Of a stretch of DNA of 64,000 nt, positions 30,944-63,494 are shown in pieces. Position numbers and translations under genes: made by a program. Positions within the stretch are counted from its first letter, which is position 1; each line of letters begins with the position of its first letter. The notes under the pieces were generated by a model. The model did not search any database. It worked only from the letters and a program-made list of their open reading frames with translations, and was not told the origin of the DNA. The stretch comes from Physcomitrium patens (Eukaryota > Streptophyta > Bryopsida > Funariales > Funariaceae): the NCBI RefSeq assembly GCF_000002425.4, contig NC_037272.1, positions 13,404,174 to 13,468,173 on the forward strand, in the 5' to 3' direction.

Positions 30944-32239
30944 TAGATTTCATATGGCTTCTAGAAATAGAACAAGTTTTGTTTTTCCAAAAAATTATAT
31001 GTTTAGTATATGAAGACATATGGTGGTTGAAACTGCCATATATGTCCAAACAACAACTAAGAATATGGCACCTACAAAAAATAAGGCACTAAAATCTTTG
31101 TGTGGTCATTCAAGCAATTATAGAGATCCTTTAATGTACAATTTCATTTATCATTTGGCCTTGCAGATGTTAATTTTCCAAAAAATCCTTTTATTTCAAC
31201 TTCAATGTAAGATGAAGATATTAGTCTTAAAAATATAATACATACTTTGACTTACATAGCATTGAATATGCCTATATTTTCTAGTATTGACTTATTAGCT
31301 TAAGAATTCAAAGGAATAAGTATCTTTTAATTGGTTAATAAATTGTTGGAAGGCAAAGGATCTATGCCATTATCAGAAGAAACTCAAGTAATAACAAAAC
31401 CTTCAGCTCAAGAAGATTTAGCTAAGTTACAAGCAAAACTTACAATCAAAGCTATTACTATATTTAATGAAAGTCATTTAAAGGCTACAAACATAAATCC
31501 TATAAGTGAAGTACCATTGGATACTGAGGTAGCATTTTAATCTGATGTTGTAGTTAGATTTGTTCAAAAATATCAAAATTTATATCTAAGAAGTATACAA
31601 TTAGTTAATAATAATAACATACTAATTATTAGTTATATTAGTGGCAATACTAGTCATGCTATATTTTTTCATATTATGCTAAATTTTAAAATTCAGCTAG
31701 TTATGATTAGTAAGCAACTTACTCAAAAATTAAGTCTTATTTGTATAGAATTCGGACCTTGTCTTTTCACCATTGTTACTTTAATAAGGAGTATGAAGAA
31801 AATTATTAACTATACCAAGAAACCTTTGTAATTAATATTTTATATCATATTTGGTCTACTTTATTCACATTTGTCTCTAAAGTATGTAGTAACTAGTACC
31901 ACCAACTGTGATATTTTAGTGGGTCAAAAGGCCCTTTATCCATTTGGTTTTGGCCTAAATAATTGGATTGAAGAAGCATGGATTCAACTAGGATGGTCTA
32001 TTAGTGATAGAAGAAAAGAATTCATTCTAGTCACATTTGCTGCAATTGCTATACTTATATCAACAAAAATCTTTTTTCATTGTAGTACATTTTTATCTAA
32101 TTTATTTTATGGAGTGGTTTTATTAGAAGAAATATTAATATTTATATTCCATTCTATAGGACCAACTAATCTACTTACTTTAGAAATTTATACAAAATAT
32201 AAAAAGGATCCATTTCTTCTCAAAAAAACATGTGCATAA
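30944..32239 (+). pseudogene. F gag end and protease region
   Basis: Short open pieces at 31,020-31,238, 31,331-31,540 and 31,871-32,239. The 31,331 piece has LSEETQVITKPSAQEDLAKL; a protease-like stretch reads IQLVMISKQLTQKLSLI near 31,690-31,740; the 31,871 piece has CDILVGQKALYPFGFGLNNW, a segment I recall from gypsy elements of this kind between protease and the next domain. Confidence 0.55.
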
Positions 32240-32264
32240 TTTTTTTGCCAAGGTGAAGAGATTG

Positions 32265-32651
32265 TATCCGCATTAGATATATTAAAGTTATCAACTTCTT
32301 CTTTTTTTACCTACCTTTGTCTAACTTATTTAATAGCATCTACCAAATGAGGATATTACTCTTGTAGAGCTCTTTGCAAATATTGGTACAAGTTTGGCAA
32401 TAGTATTAAAGATTAGGCTTATTATTTGACAGTACATTCACATGGATATTGGAACTACACCTAATCAAATAGCTTAATATCATTTCCAAAGATTATTAAT
32501 TATGTATCCTAAACAATTACAATCTTCTACCATCCTTAGCTTTTTTAGTCAACTCTTTTATGATGTCACTTTTATTAGTCATGAAGATTTAAAAAAATTA
32601 GGCTACATAAACTTATTAATTATTAAATGGCCTTGTCAAGGTCATTTACAT
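32265..32651 (+). pseudogene. C5 cytosine DNA methyltransferase domain, N-terminal part, inside element F
   Basis: One frame from about 32,340 to 32,645, with only two stops (TGA 32,427 and TAA 32,475), carries methyltransferase motif I, LVELFANIGTS at 32,361-32,393 (consensus ELFAGxG; the Gly to Asn change needs only two G-to-A steps), and motif IV WPCQGH at 32,628-32,645, whose Cys codon TGT at 32,634-32,636 is the catalytic position in this family. Between them lies LGYINLLIIKWPCQG, matching the usual hydrophobic approach to motif IV. The enzyme class transfers methyl groups from S-adenosylmethionine to cytosine C5 in DNA. The rest of the domain (motifs VI-X) is missing: a solo LTR begins at 32,652. 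Dead copy. Confidence 0.72.
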
Positions 32652-33410
32652 TGTCATATTATGTATGTTCTTACTTGAAAATATACAAAGCACCTAGTTG
32701 TGGAAGATAAATAAAAAGACAACAATAATTCTATCAAGCCTGATAGAGCCTTAAATAAACTTCAAATAATCCTAAATAAATCCAATCAAACTTTAACCTA
32801 TCAAAATAAATTTTAAAAAAATCTCAAAAGAAATACAAAAAATGATTTTTAGCTCAAAGAAAAATAACAAGAAAAATTTTAAAACATATAAAGATAAATT
32901 ACACTTATCAATTGAGACAAATACAATATAATCTAATTGGATGTTAGGGGGCCTTCTATTCCAACCTAAATTCTGAACTTCTAGTGCCAATATCTCCTTC
33001 TTAAACCATTGAATTGCTTTCAAATTTTACCTATACATTGAAAATCAAGTTTAATATCCAGAAAAAAGAATTTCACTTCAATCCAATTGACAAATTGCTG
33101 AAGATCTTAGAAACACTCACTAACCTACAAACTCCAATTTTTAAGACCTCAATCTACAAAAACCTTTATGTACTTCAATCTGGTTGTTTGATTGACCTCA
33201 AAATTTGCATACACATTTACAACTAGCACACCAATATATTACCTAGATTTCACCTATATATTTATATATATATATAGTAAAAAATTCAAGAAATCCTTAA
33301 ATTTATATATATATTTTAATTTTTCAAATCCTAATTCTACCAAGAACATTATTAATTTTGAAAATCTCTCAAAATCTCAATATTAATTCAAACAACATGA
33401 AACCAATGTC

Positions 33411-33443
<33 letters not shown>

Positions 33444-33480
33444 GGATGTCAATTCACAAACCTATGAAGAACCTAATGCC
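32652..33480 (-). mobile_element. Solo LTR of the H family, inverted
   Basis: The reverse complement matches the two H LTRs over several hundred bases and its end (here the left side, TGTCATATTATG) matches the family LTR end. It interrupts the methyltransferase frame. The right border is uncertain (33,397 to about 33,480); a run of about 30 T at 33,413-33,442 lies in that zone. Confidence 0.65.
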
Positions 33481-34869
33481 AATAAAAAAAAAGTGTGCTA
33501 TGGGCTTTTTAATTGACACTACAATTGCTTATGATCTTACTGAAAAATGTTATTTTTTTTTAGGCTAGGCTATGGATCTCAAGACTTTTATATGGATTTT
33601 TGGCATATGTTTTATTATTTAAAAGCATTTTTAAGACCATAATAGTATTCTGGGATAAAAAAATAATAGTCAAAGAATAGTAGATGTGTGAGTGTAAAAT
33701 TCACTCCTTAATCCAATTACAAGATGGCTTCAATTAAGAGCTGTTTGTAATAGGTGGTGTGAAGTAAAAGTAGCAAAAAAAAATAATAAAAGATGAAAAA
33801 TACAAAATAAGTAAAATAAGTGCAATCAAACAATTATACACAATAAAACTAGTCACAGTCTATTTATTGAGTTTTTATTTAGTAAAAAGTAAAAAATAAA
33901 AGTAAAAAATATATTTTTAAAAAGATTTTTTTTTTTTATCTTTTCAATAGTATAAGAAAAATGTAAATCCGAATTATTATGAGGAAATTATGAAGGTTTG
34001 AAAAATAACAAATAAATAAATAAATAATTAAGTAAATAATTTTACCTCAAGGGTAACTTCCTTAAGATATTAAGAGTTTAAGCCTCTTCAAGGCTCACAA
34101 GTAGTATATATGGATTCCAAAGAGAGGCCATGAGACCTTAGTCTTATCTTCCTAACTACCTTCAAGGTGCTACAACCCATATGGAACTTGTGCACCTCCC
34201 TTCTTTCAAGGACTATACTAGCTGCTAGTCCTCCTATTTTTTACTTGGTAAAATCTATAATTTTATATTTTTAACTTCACTATGGTATTTAAAAAAATTC
34301 AATTAGCCTAGGAATCTAATGAGGCCTTCAAATCTTACTCCATTTCTTCATAATGGATTCCGAAGTTATAAAACCTATTTTTACCAAAGTCTTAGAAATT
34401 GCTCTATTTTTTTTTTAATTCTAAATAAATTCTAAATAAATTCTAAAAATTCTTATTATGGTTTTATAATACTAATATCAATTTAAGGCTATAATTTTAT
34501 ACTTTGATAATTTTTATAGTGATAAAATTAATTTAAATCTACTATAAATTTTACTTTCAATATAACTAATTAAAAAGACATGATGTGCTTTCTTACACTT
34601 CTTTCAACTAGTAACTAACATTTATATTTTTTTTTATAAGTATTATATATAGATAGAAATCCAATAGAAATATTGATCTTTGTAAATATTCTTCAATATT
34701 CAATAATAAATAAAAAATACTAAATCAACTAAGATAATTACCTCCAAGACTTATTAAGACTCTATTTCTTCTCCACTAATATTTTTCTACTTCATTTAAC
34801 ATCCTTTAAGTACATCTTTACCTAAAAATTGTAGTTTTGGTATTCTATTGTCTTAAAAAAACTAGTGAG
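33481..34869. other. AT-rich DNA without recognised genes
   Basis: Stops in all frames and no motif I can name. It sits where the C-terminal methyltransferase half and the N-terminal part of F pol would be expected, so it may hold unrecognisable remains of them. Confidence 0.4.
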
Positions 34870-36043
34870 TCAATTTGATGATTTAAAAGATGCTAAATTT
34901 ATTAAGGTTGAAGAATCCAAGTCATTTCTTTGCTTATAGAGGCATGCAATTGATGAACTACAAGTTCAATGTATTTTTGTAATTTTAGCTAAAAACTTAG
35001 AGAAAACAAATATTCAAGAGATTCTTTCACAAGATTTATTTTTGAAAGACATTCCATATTCTACCAACATTTCTAATTTATACAAATATTATGGTGATGA
35101 AGTCCCTCATTTAATTAGAAGTGAGAATGTTGAGGATATAGGAGTTGTTTCTTTAATAGATTAACAGTTAAAGGCCATGCTGGCATATAGTGGTATTTGA
35201 TTGGTGAAAAAAGAAACCATAAATTTTGATGATTAACAATTGAAATTAGGACCACAACTTACTAATGCCAAAGCACGAAAGGTACGAGCTTTTATCTGCA
35301 TATATTACAATTATTTTGCATTTAGTTCTAAAATCTTAAAGGTTATAAAGGCAAACCTATTCACATCCAATTGAAAGTTGATCAACTAATCTTTTGATAA
35401 CCTTACAAGCTTAGTACCTCAAAAAAATTGGTGTCCATGCTTGTTGCAAAGAATTATTATCTACAAGCTTGATTGAGCTTATTAATAGTAAATATGCTTA
35501 TATTATAGCTATGCATTCAAAGAAAGATATTTTTAGTAATTAGATAGAGAAATAGATGTATAGAGATTATTATCCATTTAATCATAAGATTAAGTGTGAT
35601 TAATATCCAATGCTAATAATAATAGAATTATTTGATGTAGTAGGATTCTTTTAAGTATTTAAGATTTTGGATTTAAGATATGATTATTACCAATTAAAAT
35701 TACTTGTTGAAGATTTGGTGAAGAAAATATTTTGGAGAGTTGATCAAGATAATAAATATAAATTATATTACTAAAAGTTTCTTCTATTTAATCTTAAGAA
35801 TGCACCAATTGAGTTTCAATGAATTATAGAACAAGTTTTATCTACCTTGTCAATTATTAGATGTTACATTGATGATATTAATATTTTTAGTAGTATCCTA
35901 CAAGATCATATAATATATGTACAAGTAATATCTAAGCGATTATAATAATGGAGATGATACTTGTATCATAAAAAATATAAATTCGGCCATGAATAGTTAT
36001 CATATTTAGATCACATGATTATTTTATAAAGTCTTGGTATTTT
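34870..36043 (+). pseudogene. F reverse transcriptase and RNase H start
   Basis: Motifs in order: SSKILKGYKGKPIHIQLKVD near 35,320-35,380 (the segment before RT), MHSKKDIFSN, DLRYDYYQL near 35,670-35,700 and CYIDDINIFS near 35,860-35,890, which is the RT catalytic YxDD box. KYKFGHE and YLDHMIIL follow. Several stops. Cut by R2 copy 2. Confidence 0.68.
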
Positions 36044-37226
36044 TGTGATGCACTTAATTTAAGTACATCAAATTTATTTGAAGGATAATTAATTTTACTT
36101 ATAGAAAGAGAAGGATATAATGATAATATATATTTATAAATTTGAATGGAATTTGAAATAAAAAGTTGTTAGTTTGAATGGATTATTTAAGCTTGAAGAT
36201 ATTATCTTTTAGAATAGATATCTAACTATATAGTGATTCAAGGTAAGTATTAGAAAAAGATTAGGGCAACAATTTTAGAAAAGTAGTTTTTTTATTTTTT
36301 ATTTTTTATTTTTTTATTTTTATTTTTCTATTATTTTTGAGAGAAAAGATTCAATATTAGTTTAGAATTTTTTACTCCAATTTTTGTTTTATCTTTTTAT
36401 ATTGATATTTGAAGAAAAACTAGATCTAATTGTAAGCCTTTCAATAAGCTATAGCACACAAGAAATAAAGCTGTGAGGAGGAAGAGTGAAGCAAATTTGT
36501 GAAAATGAGATTGCTAGAGTTTTTTGGAGAGAAGATTTAATATTGATTTAGGATTTTCTATGCTACTTCTTACATTTTTTTTTTTTTTGTATTGATATTT
36601 GAAGTGAAGTTAAATCTTATTGTGAGCTTTTGAGCAAGCTATGGCACATAAGAAATGAAGCTCTTACGACGGAAATCCAAGAAAATTTGTAAAAAAGAGG
36701 TTGCTGGAGTTTTTAGGAGGGGAGATTCAACACTTCTTTGGGATTTTGTACACCACTTCTTGTATTTTTGTCTTTTTATGTTGATATTTTTAAAAAAACT
36801 AGATCTAATTATGAAATTTTCAATAAGCCTTAGTACATAAGAAATAGAGCTTTGATGAATGATATTCAAACAAATTTGTGGAAAGAAATTAGTGGATTTT
36901 TTAGGCAAAAAATTTCAAGATTGATTTGAGATTTTTATACCATTTATTAGATTTTCTTTTCTTTTTATTCTTAATGAGCTAATTTTTTTTTAGATTTAAT
37001 TAATAATAAATAAATTATAGATATTTTAGTAAAAAAGAGTTTAGATTTGAGATTAGAGTTAGATATTGGATGCATTTTAGTATAAGAAAGAAATTAATCT
37101 ATAAATTATACTTTTTCTTTGGTTATTTTTTATATTTGATTTTATTTGAAATAACATTGTTCTTTTTTATAACCAACTTGTGATCAAGGATTCTATGTTT
37201 TTTTGAGGAGGCTCGTCCTCTTGACA
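36044..37226. repeat. R2 copy 2, probable solo LTR with internal tandem units
   Basis: Matches 25,914-27,709. Begins TGTGATGCAC, ends CTTGACA. Between about 36,240 and 36,960 at least three loosely matching units of about 180 bp repeat the ATAAGCTATAGCACA-AAGAAAT and AATTTGTG motifs. Confidence 0.7.
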
Positions 37227-37323
37227 ATATACAATAACTAAAGATAGATGCCTTACACAAAATTCTAATACAAAGTAATGTTTATGTTAGGGACATAGTC
37301 CTTAGACCTTTCTAGAGGCAAGT

Positions 37324-37370
37324 TTCTAGAACCTTCTAGAAAGAAGTCTCTAGAAACTTCCAGAAGATTC
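37324..37370 (+). promoter_or_regulatory. Heat-shock-element array in the A LTR
   Basis: TTC-TA-GAA-CC-TTC-TA-GAA at 37,324-37,341 is a perfect run of four alternating units. At 37,348-37,370, CTC-TA-GAA-AC-TTC-CA-GAA-GA-TTC is a five-unit run with one mismatch. More GAAnnTTC units follow to about 37,490. Heat-shock factor trimers bind three or more such units. The array lies about 220-265 bp before the TATA box. Confidence 0.7.
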
Positions 37371-37587
37371 CTTGAATATTCTCTTAGAATATTCTTTAAA
37401 GATTCCCTAAAGATTCTTTGAAGATTCCCTAAAGATTCTCTTAGAAGGCTCTAGAAGATTCTTAGAATATTCTAATAGATTCTAGGAAGTTACTTGAAAA
37501 GCTTCCTAGCTCTTGGATAGTCGCTCGAGAAGCTTCATAGTTCTTGGGAAGCTTCTTGATGCGCTCCCTTAGAACCATAGGCCAGTA

Positions 37588-37629
37588 GTATATATAGGAG
37601 TCGAGGCTGAAGAGTTCTTCAGTCTCGAC
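37588..37629 (+). promoter_or_regulatory. TATA box and start-site hairpin in the A LTR
   Basis: TATATATAGG ends at 37,598. GTCGAGGCTGAAG (37,600-37,612) pairs with CTTCAGTCTCGAC (37,617-37,629) around an AGTT loop, with one G-U pair. The hairpin would sit at or near the RNA 5' end. Confidence 0.72.
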
Positions 37630-37782
37630 AACACATCTCTTGAAGCTCTAGCTCAATTCTCTTGGCGTTGCTCTTGTACTCATCTGATAATCTAGTTCTT
37701 GTCATTTCTTCTTGAACTTCTTGTTTAGATTTCTTGTTTATATTTTTGGTCTGTGACAGTTTGTCGAGACTACCTTTATCTT

Positions 37783-38156
37783 AATATCAGAGCTGAATCC
37801 TTCTTGTTTGAGAGCGGATTACCCCTCTTCTTGAAGGTATTCTAGCGCTTCAGGGGTTGCGGATTACCTTCCTCTAAACTGATATTTTTTCAATCACAAT
37901 ATCAGAGCTTAGTTCTTTGAGGCAGAGAGTGGACTACCCCTTTCCTTGGAAATACTTGAGCGTTCTAAGGATTGCGGATTACCCTCTCTTGGACTGATAT
38001 TAATTCCTTCTTTTTGTTTAGCATAGCTAGTAAAAAAGACTGTTAACATCGATTTCAGAGCTTTGCCTTCTTGATAGAGTGCGGATTACCTCTCTTCTCG
38101 AAAGCATTGAGGCATTTTTAGAGGTTGCGATTTACCATCCTCTAAAACTGAAATCG
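37783..38156 (+). other. Three tandem foldable leader repeats with primer-binding-like starts
   Basis: Units at 37,783-37,886, 37,898-38,001 and 38,050-38,156. Each opens with a TATCAGAGC-like stretch, as in the initiator-Met tRNA primer-binding site, and closes with its complement: AATATCAG/CTGATATT in units 1 and 2, CGATTTCAG/CTGAAATCG in unit 3. An inner stem is ACCCCT/AGGGGT in unit 1 (37,821 and 37,852) and ACCTCT/AGAGGT in unit 3 (38,088 and 38,120). The motif GCGGATTACC recurs about twice per unit. The closing arm resembles the tRNA 3' end (CTGATACCA). Confidence 0.7.
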
Positions 38157-38275
38157 TTTAGTGTTTTTTTTCTTTTCTCCGAGTAGGTTTTAGTGACAGG
38201 TAGTGCTACAATTTTCTCCAAGAGACTTAGCAATTTCTTCTTCTCTCAAAATTTTAATCCATCTATTCTCTAAAT

Positions 38276-39325
38276 ATGGAAGTAGACCAGGTCATAGACA
38301 GTGCATCTCCACAAGTAGACAATAGAGTGGCAACTCCTGCAGATCTTCAAGCTCTTATGAATAGTGTACGAAAGGAGATTGCATTTCTTCACAATCCAAG
38401 TAAAGAACCTCAAATTGATCTAGTGACCGAAGAAGCTAGACGCAAAATTCATAGCCTACAACAAGAGATTATTCGACTGTGAGAAGCAAGACATGTGTCA
38501 CATACGACTCCTATGGATACTTCAAGGATTAATACGAAAGAACCAAAAGCGAGTATGCCAGACAAGTTTGATGGAACAAGAGCCAACTTCCGAGGTTTTG
38601 TGCAACAAGTACGGCTTTACCTACGCCTATACCCTTCTCGTTATCCGAATGGATTTACCCAAGTTGCTTTCATAGGTACTCTTCTATCAAGAAATGCTCG
38701 CTCTTGGTTTGCTCCACTATTGGAGAAGGATTCTCCAATATTGTACGACCTAGAGGCTTTCATAGAGAGACTTACTGCTGCGTTTGGAGATAGCGATCGA
38801 GAAAGAGTGGCTGAAAGAAAGATACAAAATCTGCGACAAGGATCACGTTCTGCTGCAATCTATGCTGCAGAATTTCAACAGCTTACATGTGATCTTGATT
38901 GGAATGATAAGGCGTTCATGACACGATTTCGATATGGACTGAGAGATGATGTCAAGAACTTATTGATCACCATGCCTAAGGCGGATACTTTAGAAGAACT
39001 TATATCTCAGGCAATTATTTGTGACAACCGCCTCTTTGAATTACGACAAGAAAGACGATCAAGCTGGAGAAATGATGGAGCATTTGCTACATTTTCAAAA
39101 GGTCCAGAGAATCACTCCACAGATCTTGAATCCATGCAAATTGATGCGGTACGTTTCAAACCCCTCACAGCTGAGGAAAGGAAGCGACGGTTTGAACAAA
39201 ACTTGTGTTTATATTGCGGAGAAGCGGGCCATAAAGCTGTAGATTGTCGGAAGAAACAAAAGCCTCAAACAACAAGATTCAGGAGTACAAGCATGCAAGA
39301 AAACAAGGACGCCCAGCCACAATAG
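38276..39325 (+). pseudogene. Element A gag (capsid and zinc knuckle)
   Basis: About 349 codons from ATG 38,276 to TAG 39,323-39,325, interrupted by one TGA at 38,480-38,482 where CGA is likely. A heptad-like N terminus, the capsid core (MPDKFDGTRANFRGFVQQVR, TLLSRNARSWFAPLLE, ATYAAEFQQL-like segment) and one zinc knuckle, CLYCGEAGHKAVDC, of the C-x2-C-x4-H-x4-C type. Gag forms the particle and binds genomic RNA. Pol lies in the -1 frame and overlaps the gag end by about 80 bases. Confidence 0.85.
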
Positions 39326-39340
39326 GGACCGTGCGGCTGG
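39313..39340 (+). other. Hairpin around the gag stop codon of element A
   Basis: CCAGCC (39,313-39,318) is the exact complement of GGCTGG (39,335-39,340); the gag stop TAG lies in the 16-nt loop. The same place in E keeps GGCTGG, with CTAGCT as partner, which still pairs through two G-U pairs. Candidate signal for moving ribosomes from gag to the -1 pol frame. Confidence 0.55.
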
Positions 39341-41112
39341 ACATCTCAACATCCAAAATTAATCAAGGTCCCTTTCTCTCAGCTCAACCTTCAGATTGTT
39401 TTATGGTACCTTTACATCTGGGTATTCAAGAACTACAAGTCGATGCTTTATTAGACTCGGGTGCATTTGCTTGCTTTATAGATGGAGAGTTTGCCAAGCT
39501 TCACAATATTTCTCTTGTAAAGAAACTTAAGACTGTCCATGTAGAAGTCATAGACGGACGACCATTGTCTTCGGGCAATGTTATCCATGAAACTAAACCA
39601 TTGAAGGTACGTCTTGAAAATCATGAGAGCAATATTGTGTTTAATGTTATCAAGACCCCTTCATGTCCTATCATTTTGGGACTATCTTGGCTTCATAGAT
39701 ATAATCCATTGATAGATTGAAAGTTGCGGAAAGTGACATTTCCAACAAACTCCTTGAAGGTGGAATCTGCCAAGACAATGTCTAGAAACAAATCCTTGTT
39801 TATAGGTGCAAGGGCTTTCATGAAGGAAGCCAAGCAAAATACACCTCTTGTCATCTTTGCAACTCCGACTCGAGAAGATGCAACTCCGACTTTGGTTATT
39901 CCAAAGAAGTATGAAGAATTCAAAGATGTCTTTGAAAAGAAGAATGCTGATATGCTGCCAGAGCATCGACCCTATGACTGTGCCATTGAATTGCAAGAAG
40001 GAGCACAACCACCTTTTGGACCAATCTACAATTTGTCGCAGACGGAGTTGACTGAGTTGCGGAAGTACATTGACAAGAATCTAGCCAAGAACTTCATCCG
40101 TCATTCGAAGTCGCCAGCTGGGGCACCAATCTTATTTGTGAAGAAGAAGGATGGCTCACTATGGATGTGCGTGGACTATCGAGGTCTCAACAAGGTGACA
40201 AAAAAGAATCGCTACCCACTGCCTTTGATCTCTGGTCTTCTAGAACAACTTGGGCGTGCAAGGATCTTTACAAAGATTGACCTAAGGGGAGCTTACAACC
40301 TTGTGCGAATTAAGGAAGGAGATGAATGGAAGACAGCGTTCCGAACAAGGCATGGCCATTTTGAATACAATGTCATGCCATTTGGTCTTAGTAATGCTCC
40401 AGCGGTCTTTCAACACATGATGAATGACATCTTTTGAGAGCATCTAGACGATTTTGTTGTCATCTATCTAGATGATATTTTGATATTTTTTAAGAACGAG
40501 GAAGAACATGAGAAGCACGTTCGTCTAGTACTTAAAAAACTACGGGAGCGAGGACTCTATGCCAAATTGGAGAAGTGCTTATTTCACCAAACTGAGATGG
40601 AGTTTTTGGGATTCATTGCGACTACGGAAGGCTTGAAGATGGATCCAAAGAAGGTGGAAGCAATCATGTCTTGGGAAGTTCCGAAGATGGTTAGGGACGT
40701 ACAATGTTTTCTTGGATTTGCTAACTACTATCGGATCTTCATCAAGAATTATTCTCAAGTTGCTGCCCCCCTCACTCAGTTAACGTGTAAGGACAAGCTC
40801 GAATGGGGACCTATCGCAGAAAAAGTATTTCAAGATTTGAAAATGATATTTACTACAGCTCCAATCTTGGTACATCCGGACTTTACAAAGGCCTTTTATT
40901 TGGAGACAGATGCGTCGGATTTTGCTTTGGGAGCTGTACTTTCACAGATGGGCATAGATGAGAAGCTCCATCCAGTTGCGTTCTATTCTCGAAAATTCTC
41001 TGCTGCTGAGATCAACTATGAGATCCACGATAAGGAACTCCTTGCTATAGTAGATTCTTTCCAAGAGTGGCACCACTTTCTCGAAGGAACTGCACATCTA
41101 ATAACCGTATAT

Positions 41113-41116
41113 ACGG
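41113..41116 (+). other. Target duplication ACGG, left copy
   Basis: ACGG directly precedes the TG of the B left LTR and recurs directly after the CA of the right LTR (49,780-49,783). Removing one copy with B gives [11 protein letters not shown], the normal RNase H continuation. Confidence 0.92.
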
Positions 41117-42457
41117 TGTTGTGTTGTAACACGAGTATACAGTGAAAATAAAAAAAAAAAAGGGAATTTTATTAATATTGAGTTACCTTGAATATTGGGA
41201 GCATCGACCAACTCTAGTACAAATACTGAGTGGTCAGGTTCAGTCACTCCGTTACAGTCAGCCGGGGCATACTGAAATGCTCTGTTCGATTCCAATAACG
41301 GGAGTCAGCAGGAAGAAAAGGACCAATTCACACGACAGGTTCGAGGAGCCAATTGGATCCAATTTCGATAATCCAATCCGGGTCCTCTTATCCAATATGA
41401 GACCTGAATTGGCCGGTCAACCCAATGCAGTCTAATTACGGGAAATCCAGGTCTTACTACGGGTCTTAGCCAATCTGACGCGAGGACCAATTTGACCCAA
41501 TTACGGGAACATCCAGGTTACTACGGGCATCTTTCCCAATATAGGACCTGAATTGGTCGGGCGACTCAATGTGGTCCCGATTATGGGGTTTCGATTCTGT
41601 TTCGGGCTGTCCTGTTCTCTGTGCCGTTTCAAGGAACGTTGTTTACGGTAAATGGATCTCTTAAAGGTAAAAACGGAGGAGAAGGCCTTGATGACGTGAG
41701 CCAATTTCGGATCTAAGCTCTGACGACGGGAGCCAATTCCGGATCTAAGATGGAAGATTGAAGAAATTCAGAGGATAAGGTTAGGGGAGAATATAGTTTT
41801 GAGGGGGGAGGTTTTTTTTTCGGGGAATCGGGGGGGGAGCTAGTTTTCAAGCTTTTGCAAGGTTACCAGTTCGGTTTTCATTGGAGGTTTTTGAAGATCA
41901 AGGAAATTAGAGAGAGGAGCTTCATGCTTCGGGTCGGGGAAGGAAAGACATAGAATTTGGATTTCTCTTCTTCGTAGAGTTTTGGGAAGACTGAGGCAAT
42001 CGCTGCTGAAGTCAGTGTTGTAATGGTGAATCGAGATTTTTAAATGAAGTGGATTTGAATACTCTTGACTGTTTTGTAAAATCGAGTTACGTCTGTGATT
42101 GAAGGATTAAAGGGGTGTCTATAGGATTGAGTATGCGGAGTAAATGAAATTTATTGGGTTAATCTAACAGGACAGTCAGTGGATACAAGATTGTAAGTAC
42201 AAAGGGGTACTGAAGATTAACAGTTTGGGTTGTTCGGGGTTCTCTGTAACGTCTAGAGACCTATCGGTTGTGGCAAAAAAAAAGACTTCGATAAGCAGTC
42301 GAAGAGCATCCGTATAGATTTACGGTACATTGTTGCAGTGGTTTATATTCCAGCAGTCAAAAACTGATAGACTGCTTGACTATCGGCGAATCTCCATACT
42401 ACCTTCTACAGCCAGACGCTCGACGCGTTTTCGAGCAGGAAAGCATGTAATACGACA
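41117..42457 (+). repeat. 5' LTR of B
   Basis: Starts TGTTGTGTTGTAAC, ends AATACGACA. Between about 41,325 and 41,715 it holds at least ten CCAAT boxes and two diverged units of about 120 bp built on CCAATAT-GACCTGAATTGG and TTACGGGAA-CATCCAGG motifs. No clear TATA box near a fixed start was found. Confidence 0.92.
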
Positions 42458-42461
42458 TAAG

Positions 42462-42478
42462 TGGTGAACCCGACGTGA
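42462..42478 (+). other. B primer-binding site
   Basis: TGGTGAACCCGACGTGA begins four bases after the LTR end and starts with the TGG expected from a tRNA CCA end. The same place in G keeps TGGTGAACTTGACGTGA. The tRNA was not identified. Confidence 0.6.
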
Positions 42479-42528
42479 AAGCTTGAGGTGGAAGGTATTA
42501 GATTTCGGTTGATTTTATCTTTATTTTT

Positions 42529-44901
42529 ATGGAAAACAAAAATAAAAATTTTGAAGGATTTTTGGGAGAAGTTTCTGGTGGGGAGTCTTCTAAAGGACAA
42601 GGTATGCACATGGATCCGTCTATTGCTAGTTTGTTTGAAGCCTTCTCATTGTCAATGCAGCAACAGCAAAGCAATGATCGAAAGGAAGCTTTGGCAACCA
42701 AAGCATTGCAAGCAGTGGTCAATAAAATTGATCAATTTGATGGGAGGAATATTTCAAGGTATTTAAGATGTTATGTTCGTGAAATGGAATTAAATCGGGT
42801 TTCTGAGAAGAAAATGGTTGCACTATTTGGACTTGCCAGGATACCGGAGATAAGGGACCACATTACATCGATTACAGATCGTTGTGGGAATTCATGGGAG
42901 GATTTTTCACATACATTGAAAGACGAATATTTCTTGGAAGATGCTGATCGCGTTACTAAGAAGCTGTTTCTGGGATGGATTGAATGGCCCAATAAGAATT
43001 TGCAAGCAACAGAGCTACTAAGGGAATTTGAGAGGCAGTACTCTCAATTATCGAAGGTAGAAAAATTGACATTGGAGCCGAACAAAGTTGATCTATTTCT
43101 TCAAGCTGCTGATGGAGAATTGCAAGAGAAATTAGAACCCCTTCTTGAAGACAAAGAAGAAGATGAAGGATTGACGACGAAGTGGAAGAACGTTGAAGAT
43201 GCGGTGGGGTTGCTTACAAAAAAAGAAAGGAGGAAGGATAGGAGCAATATTCCGAAAACAGTACAAGCACCCAAAGCTCCAGTACGTACAACACCACCGA
43301 CAATGCCTACAGTTCAACCTTCGACATTCTTGTCAAAGAAAGCAGATATGGGTATGGAAGAAATTATACGAGGAATGCGAGATCTTCAAATCAAATTGGC
43401 AAGACTTGAAGAGATTACTTCTATAAACAATTCGAAGAATGTTTCAAAACAAGGATATGTACAAAGATGCATTTGGTGTGATGATGCTTCACACACTAGA
43501 AAAGATAGCAATGAATTTAATAATATGATACGGCAGGAAATTATTTGCTGGAAAGATGGGAAGATAGCATTGAAAGATAGGGAGGATCTTCTTCAAACCA
43601 ATTTTGGCAAGGGAGGAATGAGAGCATTGGTTCAAGATTACTTAAAAGAGCATGAAACAGTAGAACGAGAAAGTGCAAGTTATGGTGCTAGAGTAGATGA
43701 TGAAATTGGTGGAAGTACGGAAACTAGTGAGTTTTGGGCTTCTATCGTTTCTACAATGCAAGAAGGGAAATTACCTCGAGAAGCGTTATTGAGAACTGCA
43801 GCTACAATACGAGGAAGAACAGGTTGGGAGGATCCCGTTGAGTCTCTTTCAGTTCATGCATATATTTCTAGGAGCCAACATGAAGCTTTGATGGAAGAAA
43901 AAAGATGAGGAAATTTTGATGATACTAGAGAAGGAAATTCTTTTAAGAGGGAAACTCGAGGAGACAAGGCTCGGGAGGCAGCTTCACAAGAATTGCCCGT
44001 AAAGGATACCTCAGCATCATTGGGAGAAAAAACAACGGAGACAAAAGATAAGGGCAAATCAATTGCTTATAAGCTACTTTCTGACATTGAAGCGGCAGCA
44101 AATTTGAAAGGGGTGTTAGAAGAACGTATATTAAACGCTAAGGTAGAATTCACATTGAAAGAAGTCTTGGGAATTGCAAAGAAGGAGTTTCATGATGTTA
44201 TCATTGACAGCATTAAGCAAAAGAGGCAATTAATGAGCGAAACTGGAATGAGTCATGCTATTGATGCAAGAATATGTAGAGATGAAGAAGAGGTTGATAT
44301 TGGTTACAAGCAACCAACAAATGAAAAGAATGGGTATAATCAGCGAGTACGTTTTGAAGATTCTAGTGACAAGGAAATGGAAACTTTGAGCCATTATATT
44401 CGAAAGCATTGGGCAAGGGCAACTACTGAGGTATTGGTGAAGGTAGGAGATATAGAAGAACCAATAGTTGCCTTGGTGGACCATGGTTCTGAAATAAATC
44501 TCATGTCTAAAGATCTTTATAAGAAGCAAAAATGGCCAATTGATATGGAACATGGATGGGCAATACGAGCAGCTAATAACACACGAGGCGAATGATATGG
44601 AGCTTGTCCAGATGTCAAAATTCGGATTGGGGATGTTGCGACGGAGCAACATTTCTTCGTTCAAGATACAACGTCTTATCCGTTGATTTTAGGACAACCT
44701 TATATCACGGCAACACGGATGGAAACAAAGGCACTTGACGATGGTTTTGCTTATGCAAGGGTACGGAGCGAAGATGGGAGGAAAGCTGTACAATTTCTAA
44801 CAGTACCTCCTAACCATGAACGGAATCGAGATAGGTTGAGGGAGAAACCATTGCCAAAGATTGTTGAAGGATTTAAGGATTTTGGGGAGGTACCACTGTA
44901 A
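42529..44901 (+). pseudogene. B gag-protease frame
   Basis: About 790 codons in one frame with TGA at 43,906 and 44,593, ending at TAA 44,899. Gag: Gln-rich N terminus, LRCYVREMELNRV, acidic stretch DKEEDEG, zinc knuckle CIWCDDASHTRKDS near 43,470-43,510 (last Cys is Ser here but Cys in G), then ALLRTAATIRGRTGWEDP. Protease near 44,430-44,800: VALVDHGSEINLMSKDLY, KWPIDMEHGW, YPLILGQPYITATRMETK. The active site is Asp-His-Gly in B, G and H rather than Asp-Ser/Thr-Gly, so it is a family trait, not a mutation. Confidence 0.85.
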
Positions 44902-47900
44902 AGCGAGATTATGGAGGTACAAAAGAGGAGGTACTCTCACGAGATGAAGGTGCCTTTGATGCGAGTTTTATTGGTATATTGGAGAATGGAAATATTATGT
45001 ATAAGAAAGTTGATGATTTTAAAAGAAAAGAAAGAAAAAGATTATATGATATTGAAGGACAGTTACGCAAGATAGGTACATTGCAAGATGATGAGAGGAT
45101 TTTGGGTGTTTATGAAGAAAATGGGCTGGAAGATTCATTGGAATTGATTACATCTATTGGGTTAGGGGATAATGATAAGATTGTTGAGATTCATTCGAGA
45201 GAGGTTTATACCATGCTTGAATCTTTTCAAGTACCAGAAGTCACAGTAGAGACGAGATATAAAACGGCAGATAAGAAGGTAAAGCCTGTTGCCGGACCAT
45301 TACCAGAGGATTCTAAAGAACAAATGGGAGAAGCATCAAAAGAAGCAAGTTTAAGAGATCCAATGAGTATTGGACATCAGTTTACTGAAGAGACTTTTGA
45401 AGAATTGAAGATTGGTTCTGATGGTTCTTTATTGCCGGAGGAAATTACTTGCTTCAAAAAGATGTTGGCTAAACAAGGTAGATCGTTTGCCTTCGAATCT
45501 CATGAAATTGGGTGTGTAGATCCAAATATTATAACACCTATGGTTATCTTCACTGTACCACATGTACCTTGGAATCTAAGACCGATTCCAGTACCGAGGG
45601 CACATTTACCTAAATTGGTAGAACTATTGAAAGAAAAGATAAAGATGAAAATATTGGAACCTTCATTTGCGTCGTATTCTAGTCGATGGTTTACGGTACC
45701 TAAGAAGAATGGGTCACTACGGTTTATTCAAGATATGCAGCCGGTGAATGCTGTAACTGTCAGGAATGCAGGAATTGGACCTATTGTGGATGAATTTGCT
45801 GAGGCGTTTGCTGGAAGGGCGATCTATTCAATGGGTGATTTGTATTCAGGTTATGATCAATTTCAACTTACCGAAGGAAGTAGAGATATGACAACGATGA
45901 GAACACCGCTTGAATTGATTAGAATGTGCACTCTTCCTCAAGGCGCGACCAACTCAGTTGCGCATATGATGAATGGGATGAATAAGGTATTGAGAGATTT
46001 TATTTCGGAAAAGACTATGCCTTTTCTGGATGATGTTCCTATAAAAGGGTGCAGAGAAGGAGACAAGGATGAAACTTTAGATACGAGGGGGTGTCGCAGA
46101 TATGTTGTTGATCATATATAAGATTGTGAAAAGATTTTAACTCGGCTTGGAGAAGTTCATCTTACATTATCGGGTATGAAGTCCATATTTGGAGTACGAG
46201 AGGTTGTAATTGTTGGACATTTATGCGGATCTTACGGAAGAAAACCAGATCCGACTAAATTTGATGCAATTGGAAGGATGAAAGAGGATTGTGGTTCTTT
46301 AACAGAGGTTCGCAGGTTTTTGGGTGCATGTGTATTTTATCGAATCTGGATCCCTCATTTTGCTCACATAGCGGATCCATTATATGAACTGTTACGCAAG
46401 GGTTACCGATTTGAATGGAAAGAAAGGCATATTCAGGCAATGCAAAGATTGAAGAAATTATTGATGTCACCTCCAATATTGAGGAAGGTTGATTATAAGT
46501 GCAATAGACGAGTGATTTTTACTGTAGATGCTAGTCTAATTGCCGTTGGATGGGCGGTGGGTCAAGATGATTTGAATGGGAGTAGATTTGCAGTTCGATT
46601 TGGGGCTAAAGTTTTAAGTATTCGTTAGTGTGCATATTCGCAAGTCAAAAGAGAACTTTGGGGAGTTGTTTCGGCTATGAAAGCTGAAAAGGACTATTTG
46701 ATTGGGGCAACAGTAGTAATTGAAACAGATTGCTTGCCATTGCTTGGAATGATTATTAACTGTTCAACGCCAGATATTGCAATGTTGAGATGGATTGCTT
46801 ATATTAAGTCGCTAAATCCAGAATTTAAGCATATCACTGGAAAGGACAATTTAGTAGTAGACATGCTATCTCGAGCAAGATACGAGAGGGAGGACGAAAT
46901 GGTTGAAGACATTGATGATGTCGGATTGAAATTCTATTCAATATCAAATCTCAACAGAGAAGACAAGCTATTTCTTGAAGAATCTTATGAAGGAGAATTA
47001 TTGGATATTGGTCATTATTTGAATACCTTGTCTAAGTAGGGGAATTGATCTACAGAAAAATTCAAACAAATAAGAAAAAAAACATATGGATATTTACTTC
47101 GAGATGGATTCTTATAGAAGAGACCGAAGAAAGGAATTGGGATGCCACAACGAGTGATAGGCAAAAGGGAAGAAAAACTAAAATTATTAAAGGAGTTTTA
47201 TGATAGTTTATGGGCAGGGCATAGAGGAATCTGGGCTACTTTTGCTAAACTCAAGGAACGATATTGGTGGAAAAATATGTATCGAGATGTGCTCTCATTT
47301 GTAGAGTCATGTGAAATCTGTCAATTGTATTGTAATATCCGACATTGAGATGGTCTTCATCCTACGTATCCTCTGGCTATTCATTTTAAATGGGTTGTTG
47401 ATTTGGTTATTATGCCGGTTGGGTTATGGCAGATGAGATATTTGGTTTTAGCTCGTGAAGATTTATCAAATCAAGTAGAAGGAAGAGCATTGAGGACAAA
47501 ATCTACAGAGGGGATTTGTAGGTTTTTTCTTGAAGATGTCATTTGCCGTTACGGGTGCGTAGGGAAAATCACTGCAGATCGTGGAGAATTAAATGCACAA
47601 GAAGCTCGTAAGTTCTTTGAAAAATGTGGAGTTAAACTATCACTGACTACTGCTTATAATCCGGAAGGGAATGCGAAAAGCGAACGCGGTCACCTGCCGA
47701 TTGTGAAAGCATTGGTTAAAGCTTGTAATGGGAAGGTTAAAGAGTGGCCACGGCTTTTGTCATTTGCATTATGGGCTGATCGAACAACACATAGTTCGGT
47801 GACAGGATATATGCCAGTAGAACTTATGACAGGTCAAAAACCAATTATGCCGATTGAAGAAAAGGTACTTACTTGGAGTATGCTACCATGGGAAGATGGA

Positions 47901-48377
47901 TTGACAAGAGAAGAACTTCTGGCTGTTAGGATTCGACAATTGGAGCAAAGAACGGAAGATGTCCAGATAGCATTGGAAAGGTTAAAAAGAGCTAGGTTAC
48001 AAAACAAGGCGCGATTCGATAAGCAACATCGATTGAGACCAAAAGCAATCGAGGAAGGTGACTGGGTACTTGTTTATGACAATAGTCTGGATAATCAACA
48101 TAGTACTTTGCGGAAATTTTCAAAACGTTGGTTTGGACCATATGTTGTAACAACTGTTCATGATAATGCGACTTACTCATTACGGGAGTTAGATGGTACA
48201 AAATTGAAAATACCAATTGCAGGGAAGCGAGTAAAAATATTTAAACGAAGACACGCAGAGATGAATATGGAAGACCTTAATGAAGGTACAGAGATTCCGC
48301 AGCAAGAAGATGAAAGTGATTTGGATAATGAAGGTGACGAAGACGAACTGGACAGAGACGTAGGGGATATATTCTGA
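44880..48377 (+). pseudogene. B pol: RT, RNase H, integrase
   Basis: The frame opens around the gag-protease stop (VKRDYGGTKEEVL, then ILENGNIMYKKVDDFKRK) and ends at TGA 48,375. RT: LRPIPVPRAHLPKLVELL, SRWFTVPKKNGSLRFIQDMQ, YSMGDLYSGYDQFQL, PFLDDVPIKG near 46,018-46,047. RNase H: TVDASLIAVGWAVGQ near 46,520. Integrase: zinc finger HRGIWATFAKLKERYWWKN to CEICQ, core VVD, TADRGE and KSERGH (D, D, E), C-terminal SKRWFGPYVVTTVHDNATY and an acidic tail. Stops at 46,119 (TAA), 46,626 (TAG), 47,037 (TAG), 47,046 (TGA), 47,117 (TAG) and 47,346 (TGA), mostly at Gln, Trp or Arg positions. No chromodomain. Confidence 0.87.
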
Positions 48378-48425
48378 ATCAAATAGCAATTGGATAAATT
48401 GGTGCATACCGGAGGATGCACAGGT

Positions 48426-48439
48426 TTAGAGGGGGTGGA
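48426..48439 (+). other. B polypurine tract
   Basis: AGAGGGGGTGGA abuts the right LTR; G has AGAGGAGG at the same place. It primes plus-strand synthesis. Confidence 0.75.
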
Positions 48440-49779
48440 TGTCGTGTTGTAACATGAGTATACAGTGAAAATAAAAAAGAAAGGAGAATTTTATTAATAT
48501 TCAGTTACCTTGAATATTGGGAGCATCGACCAACTCCAGTACAAATACTGAGTGGTCAGGTTCAGTCACTCCATTACAGTCAGCCGGGGCATACTGAAAT
48601 GCTCCATTCGATTCCAATAACGGGAGTCAGCAGGAAGAAAAGGACCAATTCACACGACGGGTTCGAGGAGCCAATTGGATCCAATTTCGATAATCCAATC
48701 CGGGTCCTCTTATCCAATATGAGACCTGAATTGGCCGGTCAACCCAATGCAGTCTAATTACGGGAAATCCAGGTCTTACTACGGGTCTTAGCCAATCTGA
48801 CGTGAGGACCAATTTGACCCAATTACAGGAACATCCAGATTACTACGGGCATCTTTCCCAATATATGACCTAAATTGGTCGGGCGACTCAATGTGGTCCT
48901 GATTACGGGGTTTCGATTCTGTTTCGGGCTGTTCTATTCTTTGTGCCGTTTCAGGGAACGTTGTTTACGGTAAATGGATCTCTTAAAGGTAAAAATGGAG
49001 GAGAAGGCCTTGATGACGTGAGCCAATTTCGGATCTAAGCTCTGACGGCGGGAGCCAATTCCGGATCTAAGATGGAAGATTGAAGAAATTCAGAGGATAA
49101 GGTTAGGGGAGAATATAGTTTTGAGGGGGGAGGTTTTTTTTTCGGGGAATCGGGGGGGGAGCTAGTTTTCAAGCTTTTGCAAGGTTACCAGTTCGGTTTT
49201 CATTGGAGGTTTTTGAAGATCAAGGAAATTAGAGAGAGGAGCTTCATGCTTCGGGTCGGGGAAGGAAAGACATAGAATTTGGATTTTTCTTCTTCGTAGA
49301 GTTTTGGGAAGACTGAGGCAATCGCTGTTGAAGTCAGTGTTGTAATGGTGAATCGGGATTTTTAAATGAAGTGGGTTTGAATACTCTTGACTGTTTTGTA
49401 AAATCGAGTTACGTCTGTGATTGAAGGATTAAAGGGGTGTCTATAGGATTGAGTATGCGGAGTAAATGAAATTTATTGGGTTAATCTAACAGGACAGTCA
49501 GTGGATACAAGTTTGTAAGTACAAAGGGGTATTGAAGATTAACAGTTTGGGTTGTTCGGGGTTCTCTGTAACGTCTAGAGACCTATCGGCTGGGGCAAAA
49601 AAAAAGACTTCGACAAGCAGTCGAAGAGCATCCGTATAGATTTATGGTACATTGTTGCAGTGGTTTATATTCCAGCAGTCAAAAACTGATAGACTGCTTG
49701 ACTATCGGCGAATCTCCATACTACCTTCTACAGCCAGACGCCCGGTGCGTTCTCGAGCAGGAAAGCACGTAATACGACA
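48440..49779 (+). repeat. 3' LTR of B
   Basis: Matches 41,117-42,457. Starts TGTCGTGTTG, ends AATACGACA, followed by the ACGG duplication. Confidence 0.92.
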
Positions 49780-51471
49780 ACGGATCACAAGAATTTGGAG
49801 TATTTTATGTTGGCTCTGGTTTTGAATCGGTGTCAAGCGCGGTGGAGTATGTCGCTATCCAGGTTCGACTTTGTTATTACTTATCGGCCTGGGAAGCAAC
49901 AAGGGTTGTCCGATGCATTATCAAGGAGATCATATCTCGCGCCAAAGGGTGGAGATGCAGCATTTGATCAACAGTGCACGACATTGTTGAAGCCAGAGAA
50001 ATTTCGGCTCAACGCAGCTATTGTAACGATTGATGCTGACTTCCTCGACTAGGTACGGGCCGCAACCATTGAAGATTCTCTAGCCCTTGATATCAAGCAA
50101 CATGCTAGTGATGATAAATTCAAGATGGAAGGAGATCTAGTATATTTTGAAGAGCGGTTGTATATCCCAAAAGGGCCAGCATGACTCCGAGTTCTTCAAT
50201 CTCGTCATGACTTTCCAGCTGCGGGACATTTTGGATTCAATAAGACCTTGGAACTTATTTCTCGTGATTTCTGGTGGCCTCAAATGTGGAAGGATGTGAA
50301 AGATTTTGTTGTATCTTGTGACATTTGTTCAAGATCCAAAAACCCTCGACATCGGCCTTATGGACTTCTACAGCCATTGCCTATTCCGCGCCGACCATGG
50401 TCTTCAGTTTCCATGGACTTTATTACGGATCTACCACCATCGAGTTCATTTGACAGCATTTTTATTGTCGTAGACCGGCTTACAAAGATGGCGCATTTTG
50501 TCCCTTGCAAGAAGACATCGTCAAGCGAAGACACAGCAAGACTCTTTCTTGATAATGTGTATTGTTATCATGGTCTACCAGATGATATCGTATCAGATCG
50601 AGGAACCCAGTTTGTGTCAAAGTTTTGGAAATCTCTTTTTGAAATATTGAAGGTGGATATCAAGCTTTCTTTGGCATTTCATCCTCAAACGGACGGCCAA
50701 ACAAAATGGATGAATCAAGTTCTAGAGTAATATTTACGTTGCACCATCAATTATCAACAAGATGATTGGGTCGCATATCTACCGCTAGTCGAGTTTGTAT
50801 ATAACAACATCCTTCATGCGTCAACTCAACAAACGCCATTCTTTTCCAATTATGGATACCATCCGAAGCTTGATTTATGGAGTTCATCAACGATTAACAA
50901 TCCGGCAGCTGAAGGATTGGTAAAGGAGCTTTCGCAGCTTCAAACTACATTGAAGCTTCAATTGCAAACTACCCAAGAATCTTACAAGGCGTCCACGAAC
51001 AAATTTCGAAATCAGGCACCTAAATTCACGATTGGAGACAAAGTTTGGCTGCTTCGATGAAATATTAAGACCAAGCGGCCATGTGACAAATTGGACTATC
51101 GGAGATTGGGACCATTTGTTATCCAGAAGCAGATCAATCCTGTAGCGTATCGTCTGGAGTTACCAGCTACTATGAAGGTACATCCTGTCTTTCATGTTTC
51201 TTTGTTGGAGCCTTATCGAGAATCGTCTTTTCCTGGAAGAGTACAATGTCCACCACCTAGCATAGAAATAGAGAACCACGAAGAATACGAGGTGGAAAAG
51301 GTCCTGGATTCACGGCAAAGACGGGGTAAATTAGAATACTTTGTGCATTGGAGCGGTTACGATATTAATGAACGAACATGGGAGCCGGCCGAAAATCTCG
51401 CGAATGCGTCGCAAAAGGTACAGGAGTTTCATCGACGATATCCTGAGAAACCCAAGCCGGTTCGACGATAG
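49780..51471 (+). pseudogene. Element A pol, second part: RNase H end, integrase, chromodomain
   Basis: Continues the interrupted RNase H ([29 protein letters not shown]), then the integrase zinc finger, ISRDFWWPQMWKDV to CDICSRSKNPRH, core SMDFITDLP, VSDRGTQFVSKFW and HPQTDGQTKWMNQVLE (D, D, E), [13 protein letters not shown] and a C-terminal chromodomain [38 protein letters not shown]. Stops at 50,050 (TAG), 50,182 (TGA), 50,728 (TAA) and 51,058 (TGA) fit Gln, Arg, Gln, Arg. Integrase inserts the DNA copy; chromodomains steer insertion to marked chromatin. Confidence 0.9.
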
Positions 51472-51616
51472 CTTCTTACTGAAGCTTGCTCATCCAGAAA
51501 ACAGAAAAGAGGAGAGAGCACCACCAAAATCTATAGTTGATGTAGTCATTCTCTCCAAGATAGCGTAGAACTTTGTTAGTAGCCCAAGTTTGTTCTTATT
51601 GTTTTAGCCTTTGAAT

Positions 51617-51880
51617 ATGGATAGCCAAGATACTACACTTGTCATGTCATCTCAAGCAATTAGCTCACGAAGACGACCGCGAGATGAAGAACCGCTTGCA
51701 CCACGACGACGTCGAAGGATTCCGAGCAACAGATCGCTGGTGATTGTATTTGACGTCGAGCCTGCCTATAATGGTCAGCTAGAAGGAGTGTTTGCAGGAC
51801 AATTTCACAATGAAGACACGGAGGTTCATGCTTGGTCAGACTTCGAGACTTGGAGTCATGAGCAATTTGTCATTGAATAA
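51617..51880 (+). CDS. Small frame downstream of A pol, 87 codons, function unknown
   Basis: Intact frame from ATG 51,617 to TAA 51,878. Arg-rich middle (SRRRPRDEEPL, PRRRRRIPSNR), which could act as a nuclear-localisation or nucleic-acid-binding stretch, then an acidic aromatic C terminus (EVHAWSDFETWSHEQFVIE). No family recognised. Base use is like element A and unlike the AT-rich DNA just after it. It may be an accessory frame of A or a chance survivor. Confidence 0.4.
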   Translation: MDSQDTTLVMSSQAISSRRRPRDEEPLAPRRRRRIPSNRSLVIVFDVEPAYNGQLEGVFAGQFHNEDTEVHAWSDFETWSHEQFVIE

Positions 51881-51890
51881 TAAGATTTTA

Positions 51891-53230: not shown

Positions 53231-53570
53231 ATGTCTAATCTCTTAATAAAGATTGAAGATTTTTTCTATTGTATGTATCACATAATTTAATGGTGTAACT
53301 GCTGTAATATTAGTTAGGAAGAATACAGTTTGGCATTGATATTATTATGATATTCAACTTTAATGATGCATGTTTTGTAGTCCTAGTTTACTGAAAGAAC
53401 TCTTAATCAATTAAGAAGGCATTTAAAAGTATATTAGATGTGCATTTGTATTTGATTTGCATTACATATTTTATGATTTGTTTCTAGTACTTGATATATT
53501 GTATATAACAATCATTGTTTATATGACAATTGTCACATGATATGGCATCAAGTACTAAATTTCTTGAAAT

Positions 53571-57777: not shown

Positions 57778-57781
57778 TAAG

Positions 57782-57798
57782 TGGTGAACTTGACGTGA
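57782..57798 (+). other. G primer-binding site
   Basis: TGGTGAACTTGACGTGA, differing from the B site by two C-to-T changes. Confidence 0.6.
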
Positions 57799-57850
57799 AT
57801 TGCTTGAAGTAAGAGGTATTGGAATTCATATATTTTTGTTTTTATTTTAT

Positions 57851-63100: not shown

Positions 63101-63432
63101 GCAATTGAAGAAGGTGATTGGATTTTGGTCTATGATAGTAGCTTGGACAATCAACATATACTTAAAGGAAGCTTTCTAAGCGATGGTTTGGACCGTATGT
63201 GGTAACAATTGTTCATAATAATGTAACTTACTCATTGCGGGAGTTAAATGGAATAAGGTTAAAAATACCAATTGCAAGGAAGCGAGTAAAAATATTTAAA
63301 CAAAGATATACAAAAATAAATATAGAAGACCTTGGTGAAGACATAGATATTCCTCAACAGAAAGATGAATTTGACTTGGATAGCAAAAGTGATGAAGAAG
63401 ATTTAGACGAAGACTTGGAGAACATATTATAA
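60179..63432 (+). pseudogene. G pol: RT, RNase H, integrase
   Basis: Open pieces at 60,275-60,583 (KKVDDFKRKKRKRLYSIERE), 60,869-61,168 (LSKLVELLKEKMRMKILEPS), 61,250-61,465, 61,733-62,104 (RNase H) and 63,199-63,432 (integrase C terminus with acidic tail). The RT block that would contain the catalytic PFLDDVP box is deleted near 61,165-61,250. The integrase core can be followed near 62,450-62,900. Dead copy. Confidence 0.8.
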
Positions 63433-63494
63433 ATCAAACAACAACTAGGTTATTTGGTGCATACCAAAAGATGCACAGGTTCAGAGGAGGTGTA

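Follow-up and report, generated by a model that had tools for sequence, protein, structure and literature searches.

At about 31.2-53.2 kb, the window, meaning the whole 64,000-nucleotide stretch analyzed here (C20:13404174-13468173 of a 470-Mb assembly of 101 contigs), carries what is, by sequence comparison, a dead Ty3/gypsy-like retrotransposon, interrupted more than once and belonging to a plant/algal family, with the remains of a cytosine-C5 DNA methyltransferase (DNMT) in it. With a probability of roughly 70%, we read it as an element whose DNMT would have been made at the Gag level by means of a leaky stop and used for self-methylation, whose PHD finger would have served in tethering, and which would later have been destroyed by host-driven decay.

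The methyltransferase fragment and its element

An earlier note on this DNA had proposed a methyltransferase domain at 32265-32651 on the strength of two motifs, LVELFANIGTS and WPCQGH. Both lie where it placed them, starting at 32361 and 32628, 267 bases apart in a single frame, with two stops between them in that frame. The C5 methyltransferase profile search that the note suggested gave no Pfam match even at an E value of 10, so this check fails for this copy alone, and a PDB sequence search with the bare fragment returned chance-level matches only; by itself, the fragment is too decayed for either search. Against 5.8 billion proteins it had one match (1 of 25 candidates), the 271-aa protein P0001 (E 2.1e-21; 45 of 97 residues identical), which Pfam assigns to the C5-methylases (PF00145, E 5.7e-11) and which, used as a query, matched 92 proteins, itself included, of 1548 candidates. 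The best match to the window was P0011, an environmental DNMT, at 32316-32645 (59% over 110 positions; 123 bits), and the maximum chance score in 200 first-order resamples of the surrounding 5-kb stretch was 21.9 bits. With P0008 and P0011 as queries, three DNMT blocks were found in order in the window, and the segment at 32316-32645 is confirmed as motifs I-IV, the front half of a decayed cytosine-C5 methyltransferase. The element is made up as follows.

31241..32293, + strand: aspartyl protease and linker, decayed; 39% to L001 ORF1 residues 372-722, joined E 2.8e-91; also similar to P0012
32316..32645, + strand: N-terminal part of the DNMT, motifs I-IV, with five in-frame stops; 59% to P0011 residues 15-124
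32652..33440, - strand: piece of an LTR from a different element, interrupting the DNMT
33442..33685, + strand: DNMT motifs IX-X, in two frames; P0011 residues 288-308 and 302-369
33690..34885: further insertion in the C-terminal part of the DNMT; gap between P0011 matches
34889..35161, + strand: C-terminal tail after the DNMT; 40% to P0011 residues 369-458, E 3e-13
35162..35164, + strand: TAA at the conserved stop position between DNMT and RT, with CAG TTA next to it; in frame with the start of the reverse transcriptase (RT)
35204..36041, + strand: RT, decayed, in three frames; 53-61% to L001 ORF2 residues 14-293, E 2e-68
36042..51840: later insertions (other LTR elements) between RT and integrase, about 16 kb
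51841..53235, + strand: integrase and remnant of a C-terminal PHD finger; 48.6% to L001 ORF2 residues 577-1041, E 4.5e-117

The protease, RT, and integrase stand in gypsy order, and the methyltransferase lies between protease and RT as the earlier note had it, the P0011 match being flanked by these two regions. Neither the gag of this copy, looked for within the window, nor its RNase H, sought there by comparison with L001, was found, its own LTRs were not located, and an Rfam scan of the window gave no match. In the PHD stretch, 28 of 54 residues are identical to those of L001, and several zinc ligands are lost.

The further claim that the second half of the domain is missing applies to motifs V-VIII (about residues 125-287 of P0011), which are absent; motifs IX-X and the C-terminal tail survive, so that the copy retains motifs I, IV, IX, and X and lacks VI and VIII. 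The loss had been blamed on a solo LTR. An LTR fragment does lie directly after motif IV, with further copies near 15.1-16.2 and 30.1-30.9 kb of the window, but a deletion beside it would also be needed. The right-hand end of the fragment is a T-run without a recognizable LTR terminus, after which the DNMT resumes; in the simplest order of events, insertion after motif IV would have been followed by a deletion that removed the LTR end together with motifs V-VIII.

Elsewhere in the nest, the gag of a nested element is preceded at 37782-38060 by a motif that ends in TCAGAGC and is present in three spaced copies, which resemble decayed tRNA-iMet primer sites. A primer site, TGGTATCAGAGC, was considered as proof of a land-plant origin and dropped, having 6 matches at up to two mismatches, compared with 3.3 expected.

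The open relative L001 and copies in the same genome

The organization of the family can be read from L001 (CADCWO010000201.1), a 9285-bp contig with two long open frames and 127-nucleotide identical ends, as expected from circular assembly. Its layout is gag-protease-linker-DNMT, one in-frame stop, and then RT-RNaseH-integrase-PHD finger. The first frame, whose front part lies at the opposite contig end, contains a gag in which CCHC knuckles are visible by eye, an aspartyl protease below its cut-off (E 7.8e-4), and the DNMT (E 6.8e-12); in the second, Pfam recognizes RT, RNaseH, H2C2, rve, and PHD (E 4.3e-10).

The contig is titled "uncultured Synechococcales cyanobacterium isolate AVDCRST_MAG81," and P0008 is named "DNA cytosine methyltransferase [Candidatus Obscuribacterales bacterium]"; such labels would fit a DNMT recently captured from bacteria. 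However, both L001 and P0008 carry sequence of the retroelement family. A GTDB scan gave five loci, four from Streptomyces and L001 itself, and the true bacterial matches were 35-46% alike over short stretches; the nearest solved structures are those of eukaryotic DNMT3 enzymes. Of three IMG/VR scans, one was without a confirmed match, one had six loci at 33-61% over short stretches, and one was empty. Almost certainly, the L001 contig is eukaryotic DNA that was wrongly binned into a bacterial MAG; mis-binning is also the probable reason for the filing of P0008 as bacterial, and a recent bacterial capture is very improbable.

In the genome of the window, the L001 DNMT domain had at least 116 matches, on contigs C1 to C27 (114 of 433 candidates scored; the window's own copy is absent from the list), of which at least three pairs less than 1 kb apart probably represent one copy each. 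Every match listed has in-frame stops, including the 13 that span at least 331 of the 356 positions. Because of these stops, the case for DNMT function rests on relatives elsewhere. Among 30 loci fetched, 25 had protease/linker sequence upstream, 24 had RT downstream, and 22 had both (within 1.5 kb). Copies with motifs VI-X in this place, which the earlier note had proposed to look for, were found: one (L024) has, with stops, all of the sequence that the window copy lacks, and three others (L020, L021, and L022) carry parts of the missing V-VIII stretch, also with stops. PF00145 itself had 12 matches in this genome, five of them of the retroelement family (L018/L020, L019/L021, L022, L023, and L024). 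Six other loci (L012-L017) showed weak or no similarity to the element DNMT, the non-family loci fetched being about 25% alike or unmatched; a match at C11:13640318 was left out of the comparison. One family locus, L023 (G000:C4:8561500-8571000), represents another DNMT-retroelement subfamily of this genome, nearer to a Marchantia protein: it scored better with P0114 (E 3e-41) than with P0011 (E 9e-18).

From the window alone, the link between DNMT and RT is indirect because the copy is split by later insertions, and the DNMT fragment could on that view be a piece of a host gene or a separate insertion lying outside the element. This explanation has next to no probability: the DNMT is joined with retroelement domains in L001 and in the proteins P0118, P0128, and P0132, the arrangement recurs in 22 of the 30 copies, and the non-family PF00145 loci are too dissimilar. 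A host DNMT gene piece was accordingly rejected as the source, being contradicted by the L001- and P0118-type joins and by the recurrent arrangement.

A conserved stop between DNMT and RT

In L001, both frames are in register and are split by a single TAG, followed by CAA TCA. UAG-CAR-YYA is a readthrough signal of the tobacco-mosaic type. Thirteen homologues of 1330-1451 aa (P0094-P0099, P0101, P0102, P0104-P0107, and P0110) end shortly after the DNMT. A readable RT start was present in 21 of the 30 loci from the window's genome, 18 of them in register, and 17 of these 18 have a stop triplet at the DNMT/RT place (TAG in 14, TAA in 3), the exception being L038 with TAT; three copies one base out of register (L026, L028, and L051) were set aside post hoc, and if they are counted as misses, the figure becomes 17 of 21. 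The background stop rate in the same segments is 1252 of 29040 codons (4.3%). The third triplet is YYA in 16 of the 18 in-register copies. The exact TAG CAR YYA occurs in L001 and in 4 of these 18 copies (L032, L035, L036, and L052), as well as in L024, where it is one base out of register with RT. Non-exact forms include TAA CAG TTA in the window and TAA TAG TTA in L021; L022 has TAC TAG TTA, with no stop at the DNMT/RT place itself, and in L023 the stop place was sought and not found. Since the stop is conserved and often lies in a readthrough-like context, the DNMT was probably made at the Gag level.

Kind of enzyme and past constraint

The closest solved structures are DNMT3A/3B, both with P0001 (E 2.7e-7) and with a five-sequence profile (E 1.5e-9), and the motifs follow the canonical order, I-IV and then VI-X. 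DRM enzymes have a different motif order. The element DNMT thus looks Dnmt3-like in sequence. Further profile evidence consists of PF00145 matches in P0001, L001, P0114, P0118, and others; NCBIfam gave the dcm superfamily alone, below the cut-off, for P0011 and P0114. Among relatives covering each site, the catalytic Cys of motif IV is kept in 100 of 104, the ENV Glu of motif VI in 85 of 93, the motif VIII Arg in 75 of 87, and the motif X Gly in 52 of 54.

Across 101 codons in DNMT motifs I-IV, the window copy and L001 differ by 11 transversions at codon position 1, 5 at position 2, and 26 at position 3 (position 3, 26/101, versus positions 1 and 2, 16/202; p 7e-5). The corresponding counts were 21, 14, and 29 in 207 codons of the RT (p 0.04) and 26, 24, and 100 in 465 codons of the integrase-PHD region (p 1e-18). 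The excess at position 3 indicates that the DNMT was under constraint before the window copy died.

For the PHD finger, the best solved relatives include CHD4, Cph2, PHF12, UHRF1, MLL3/KMT2D, KDM5A/B, and PHF21A, several of which have PHD fingers that read unmodified H3 tails; by similarity, the finger of the element may be of this unmodified-H3 type, though the matches to MLL3/KMT2D fingers count against it. Plant chromoviruses are Ty3/gypsy elements that likewise carry a chromatin reader after the integrase, but theirs is a chromodomain and they have no DNMT, whereas the window family has a PHD finger and a DNMT.

In another reading, the element is the same and its DNMT had a different target (for example, host DNA, competing elements, or RNA) or bound nucleic acid in the particle without catalysis. 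PMC6338049 argues that retrotransposon methylases have an antiviral role, and the position of the DNMT differs among relatives (P0128 and P0137). The retention of the catalytic Cys and Glu in nearly all relatives covering them speaks against a purely structural role, and the closest structures belong to DNMT3 enzymes, which methylate DNA. We regard this reading as rather unlikely and prefer self-methylation by a Gag-level DNMT.

Relatives, spread, and tree

With L001 ORF1 as a protein query, at least 49 matches were found at an E value of 1e-5 (the 8000 candidates sharing most words were scored). Nineteen of the matches listed come from a named organism: Marchantia polymorpha (12), Closterium (5), Calypogeia fissa (1), and Sphagnum fallax (1); no Klebsormidium name occurs among these at least 49 matches. 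The earlier note's suggestion of an extension to land plants is borne out, as the family has relatives in Marchantia (at least 12 proteins), Calypogeia (at least 1), and Sphagnum (at least 1). Marchantia has long predicted gag-protease-DNMT proteins, and those such as Mp_4g09160 and MARPO_0091s0058 are polyproteins belonging to this superfamily, with 41-49% identity across the DNMT, that fall in a different tree clade.

Among 14 relatives examined with Pfam, P0118, P0128, and P0132 join a DNMT with RT and RNaseH, P0126 joins it with RNaseH, and P0116 and P0136 join it with a CCHC knuckle. P0128 has its DNMT between RNaseH and integrase and a terminal PHD finger, whereas in P0137 the DNMT end runs directly into integrase and PHD. 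From these two layouts, it follows that the position of the DNMT takes at least two forms across the wider group, and that production at the Gag level fails for that wider group. Gene models that read from the DNMT into RT, namely, P0118 (Pfam) and P0122, P0125, and the Sphagnum protein P0139 (by eye), perhaps reflect predicted splicing. Two more distant proteins were also seen: P0073, of green-algal look by eye, and P0141, with RT, RNaseH, integrase, a zinc-finger-like C terminus, and a highly divergent match to the DNMT.

In a tree of 62 rows, the window fragment grouped with P0011 (100/95) inside a 17-row clade that holds L001, and the liverwort and Sphagnum rows formed a separate clade; the window row is 28% filled, with a long branch and odd make-up, and its exact place is unsure. 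Tree and spread together suggest that the DNMT was not a recent capture by this genome.

Decay, probable methylation marks, and host genes

The ratio of observed to expected CpG is 0.11 in the protease/linker, 0.32 in the RT, and 0.10 in the integrase-PHD region, versus 0.76 in a younger element that the window also contains; host methylation would account for this loss just as well. C-to-T changes were read from two pairs of sequences.

42561-48500 and 57600-63600: old element pair recording C-to-T decay
LTRs from 41146 and from 48468: young LTR pair recording C-to-T decay

In the old pair, C-to-T rates were 0.40 at CG, 0.35 at CAG, and 0.39 at CTG, versus 0.20-0.24 at CCG and CHH sites; in the young pair, CHG had 13/241 versus 8/680 for CHH (p 5e-4). 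Plant CHG methylation would leave such a pattern, which we read as its fossil. Fungal RIP was rejected as the cause of decay, since the changes peak at CG, CAG, and CTG and show no CA specificity.

A host gene similar to callose/1,3-beta-glucan synthases adjoins the nest, with exons at 4382-11302 (- strand). One exon matched FKS1_dom1 (E 2e-15), a domain common to fungal synthases, and further exons were recognized by eye; among nine stretches of this region scanned, seven gave weak or no matches and one a chance-level match. Elsewhere in the genome, the host locus L012 is DRM2-like (E 6e-41), and DRM is described as restricted to streptophytes in PMC12344493. Together with the C-to-T pattern, these genes indicate a streptophyte host that is probably a moss, a charophyte alga being the less likely source of the window.

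Discussion

DNMT-bearing retrotransposons are a known kind of element. The earlier note had mentioned cases from dinoflagellates and charophyte algae; elements of Klebsormidium and Symbiodinium are described in PMC5890265. For KnitGypsy-Dnmt3 of Klebsormidium nitens, conserved key residues and purifying selection were reported in that text (de Mendoza et al. 2018, PMC5890265). By its description there, it resembles the window family in being an LTR element of Gypsy type with a nonrearranged, Dnmt3-related DNMT in its coding region; it differs in having the DNMT in the Pol polyprotein ORF and DIRS-like repeats, whereas in the window family the DNMT ends the gag-protease ORF before the stop. The Pol of the window family also ends in a PHD finger, and the term "PHD" is absent from the KnitGypsy text of PMC5890265. 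SymbioLINE-Dnmt and SymbioDIRS-Dnmt3 of Symbiodinium (PMC5890265) are likewise retrotransposons with a C5 DNMT, but of LINE and DIRS rather than Ty3/gypsy type; CG depletion was reported there for SymbioLINE-Dnmt.

According to a passage in a 2019 review, land plants are without DNMT-bearing retrotransposons, a statement that the bryophyte proteins contradict for land plants as a whole. Among the titles and abstract starts listed in searches of open-access PMC, neither bryophyte retrotransposon DNMTs nor a DNMT-plus-PHD element nor a leaky stop of this kind was found. The bryophyte spread, the combination of DNMT and PHD finger, and the leaky-stop layout are apparently new.

In the mechanism that we favor, gag-protease-DNMT would be the main product and Pol would arise by leaky readthrough of the conserved TAG, so that particles would hold as much DNMT as Gag. 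Its substrate would be cDNA of the element or a newly integrated copy, as de Mendoza et al. (PMC5890265) suggested for their own elements, while integrase would be tethered by the PHD finger to chromatin whose H3 is unmodified. Fresh insertions would thus begin quiet and do little harm. Host CG and CHG methylation, followed by deamination, would then have destroyed the copies in this genome. A broader version, in which an early-land-plant retrotransposon lineage paired a PHD finger of unmodified-H3 type with a Gag-level de novo DNMT for self-silencing, reached more than 100 places of a single moss-like genome, and was later wiped out by the deamination to which such methylation leads, is put forward tentatively and is doubtful as a whole.

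Retrotransposons are normally targets of DNA methylation, and those that encode the enzyme have been reported from algae and dinoflagellates; to these, the present family adds bryophytes. The pairing of DNMT and PHD finger and the conserved stop lead to testable predictions on dosage and targeting, and Marchantia offers a tractable liverwort system for asking whether the element methylates itself.
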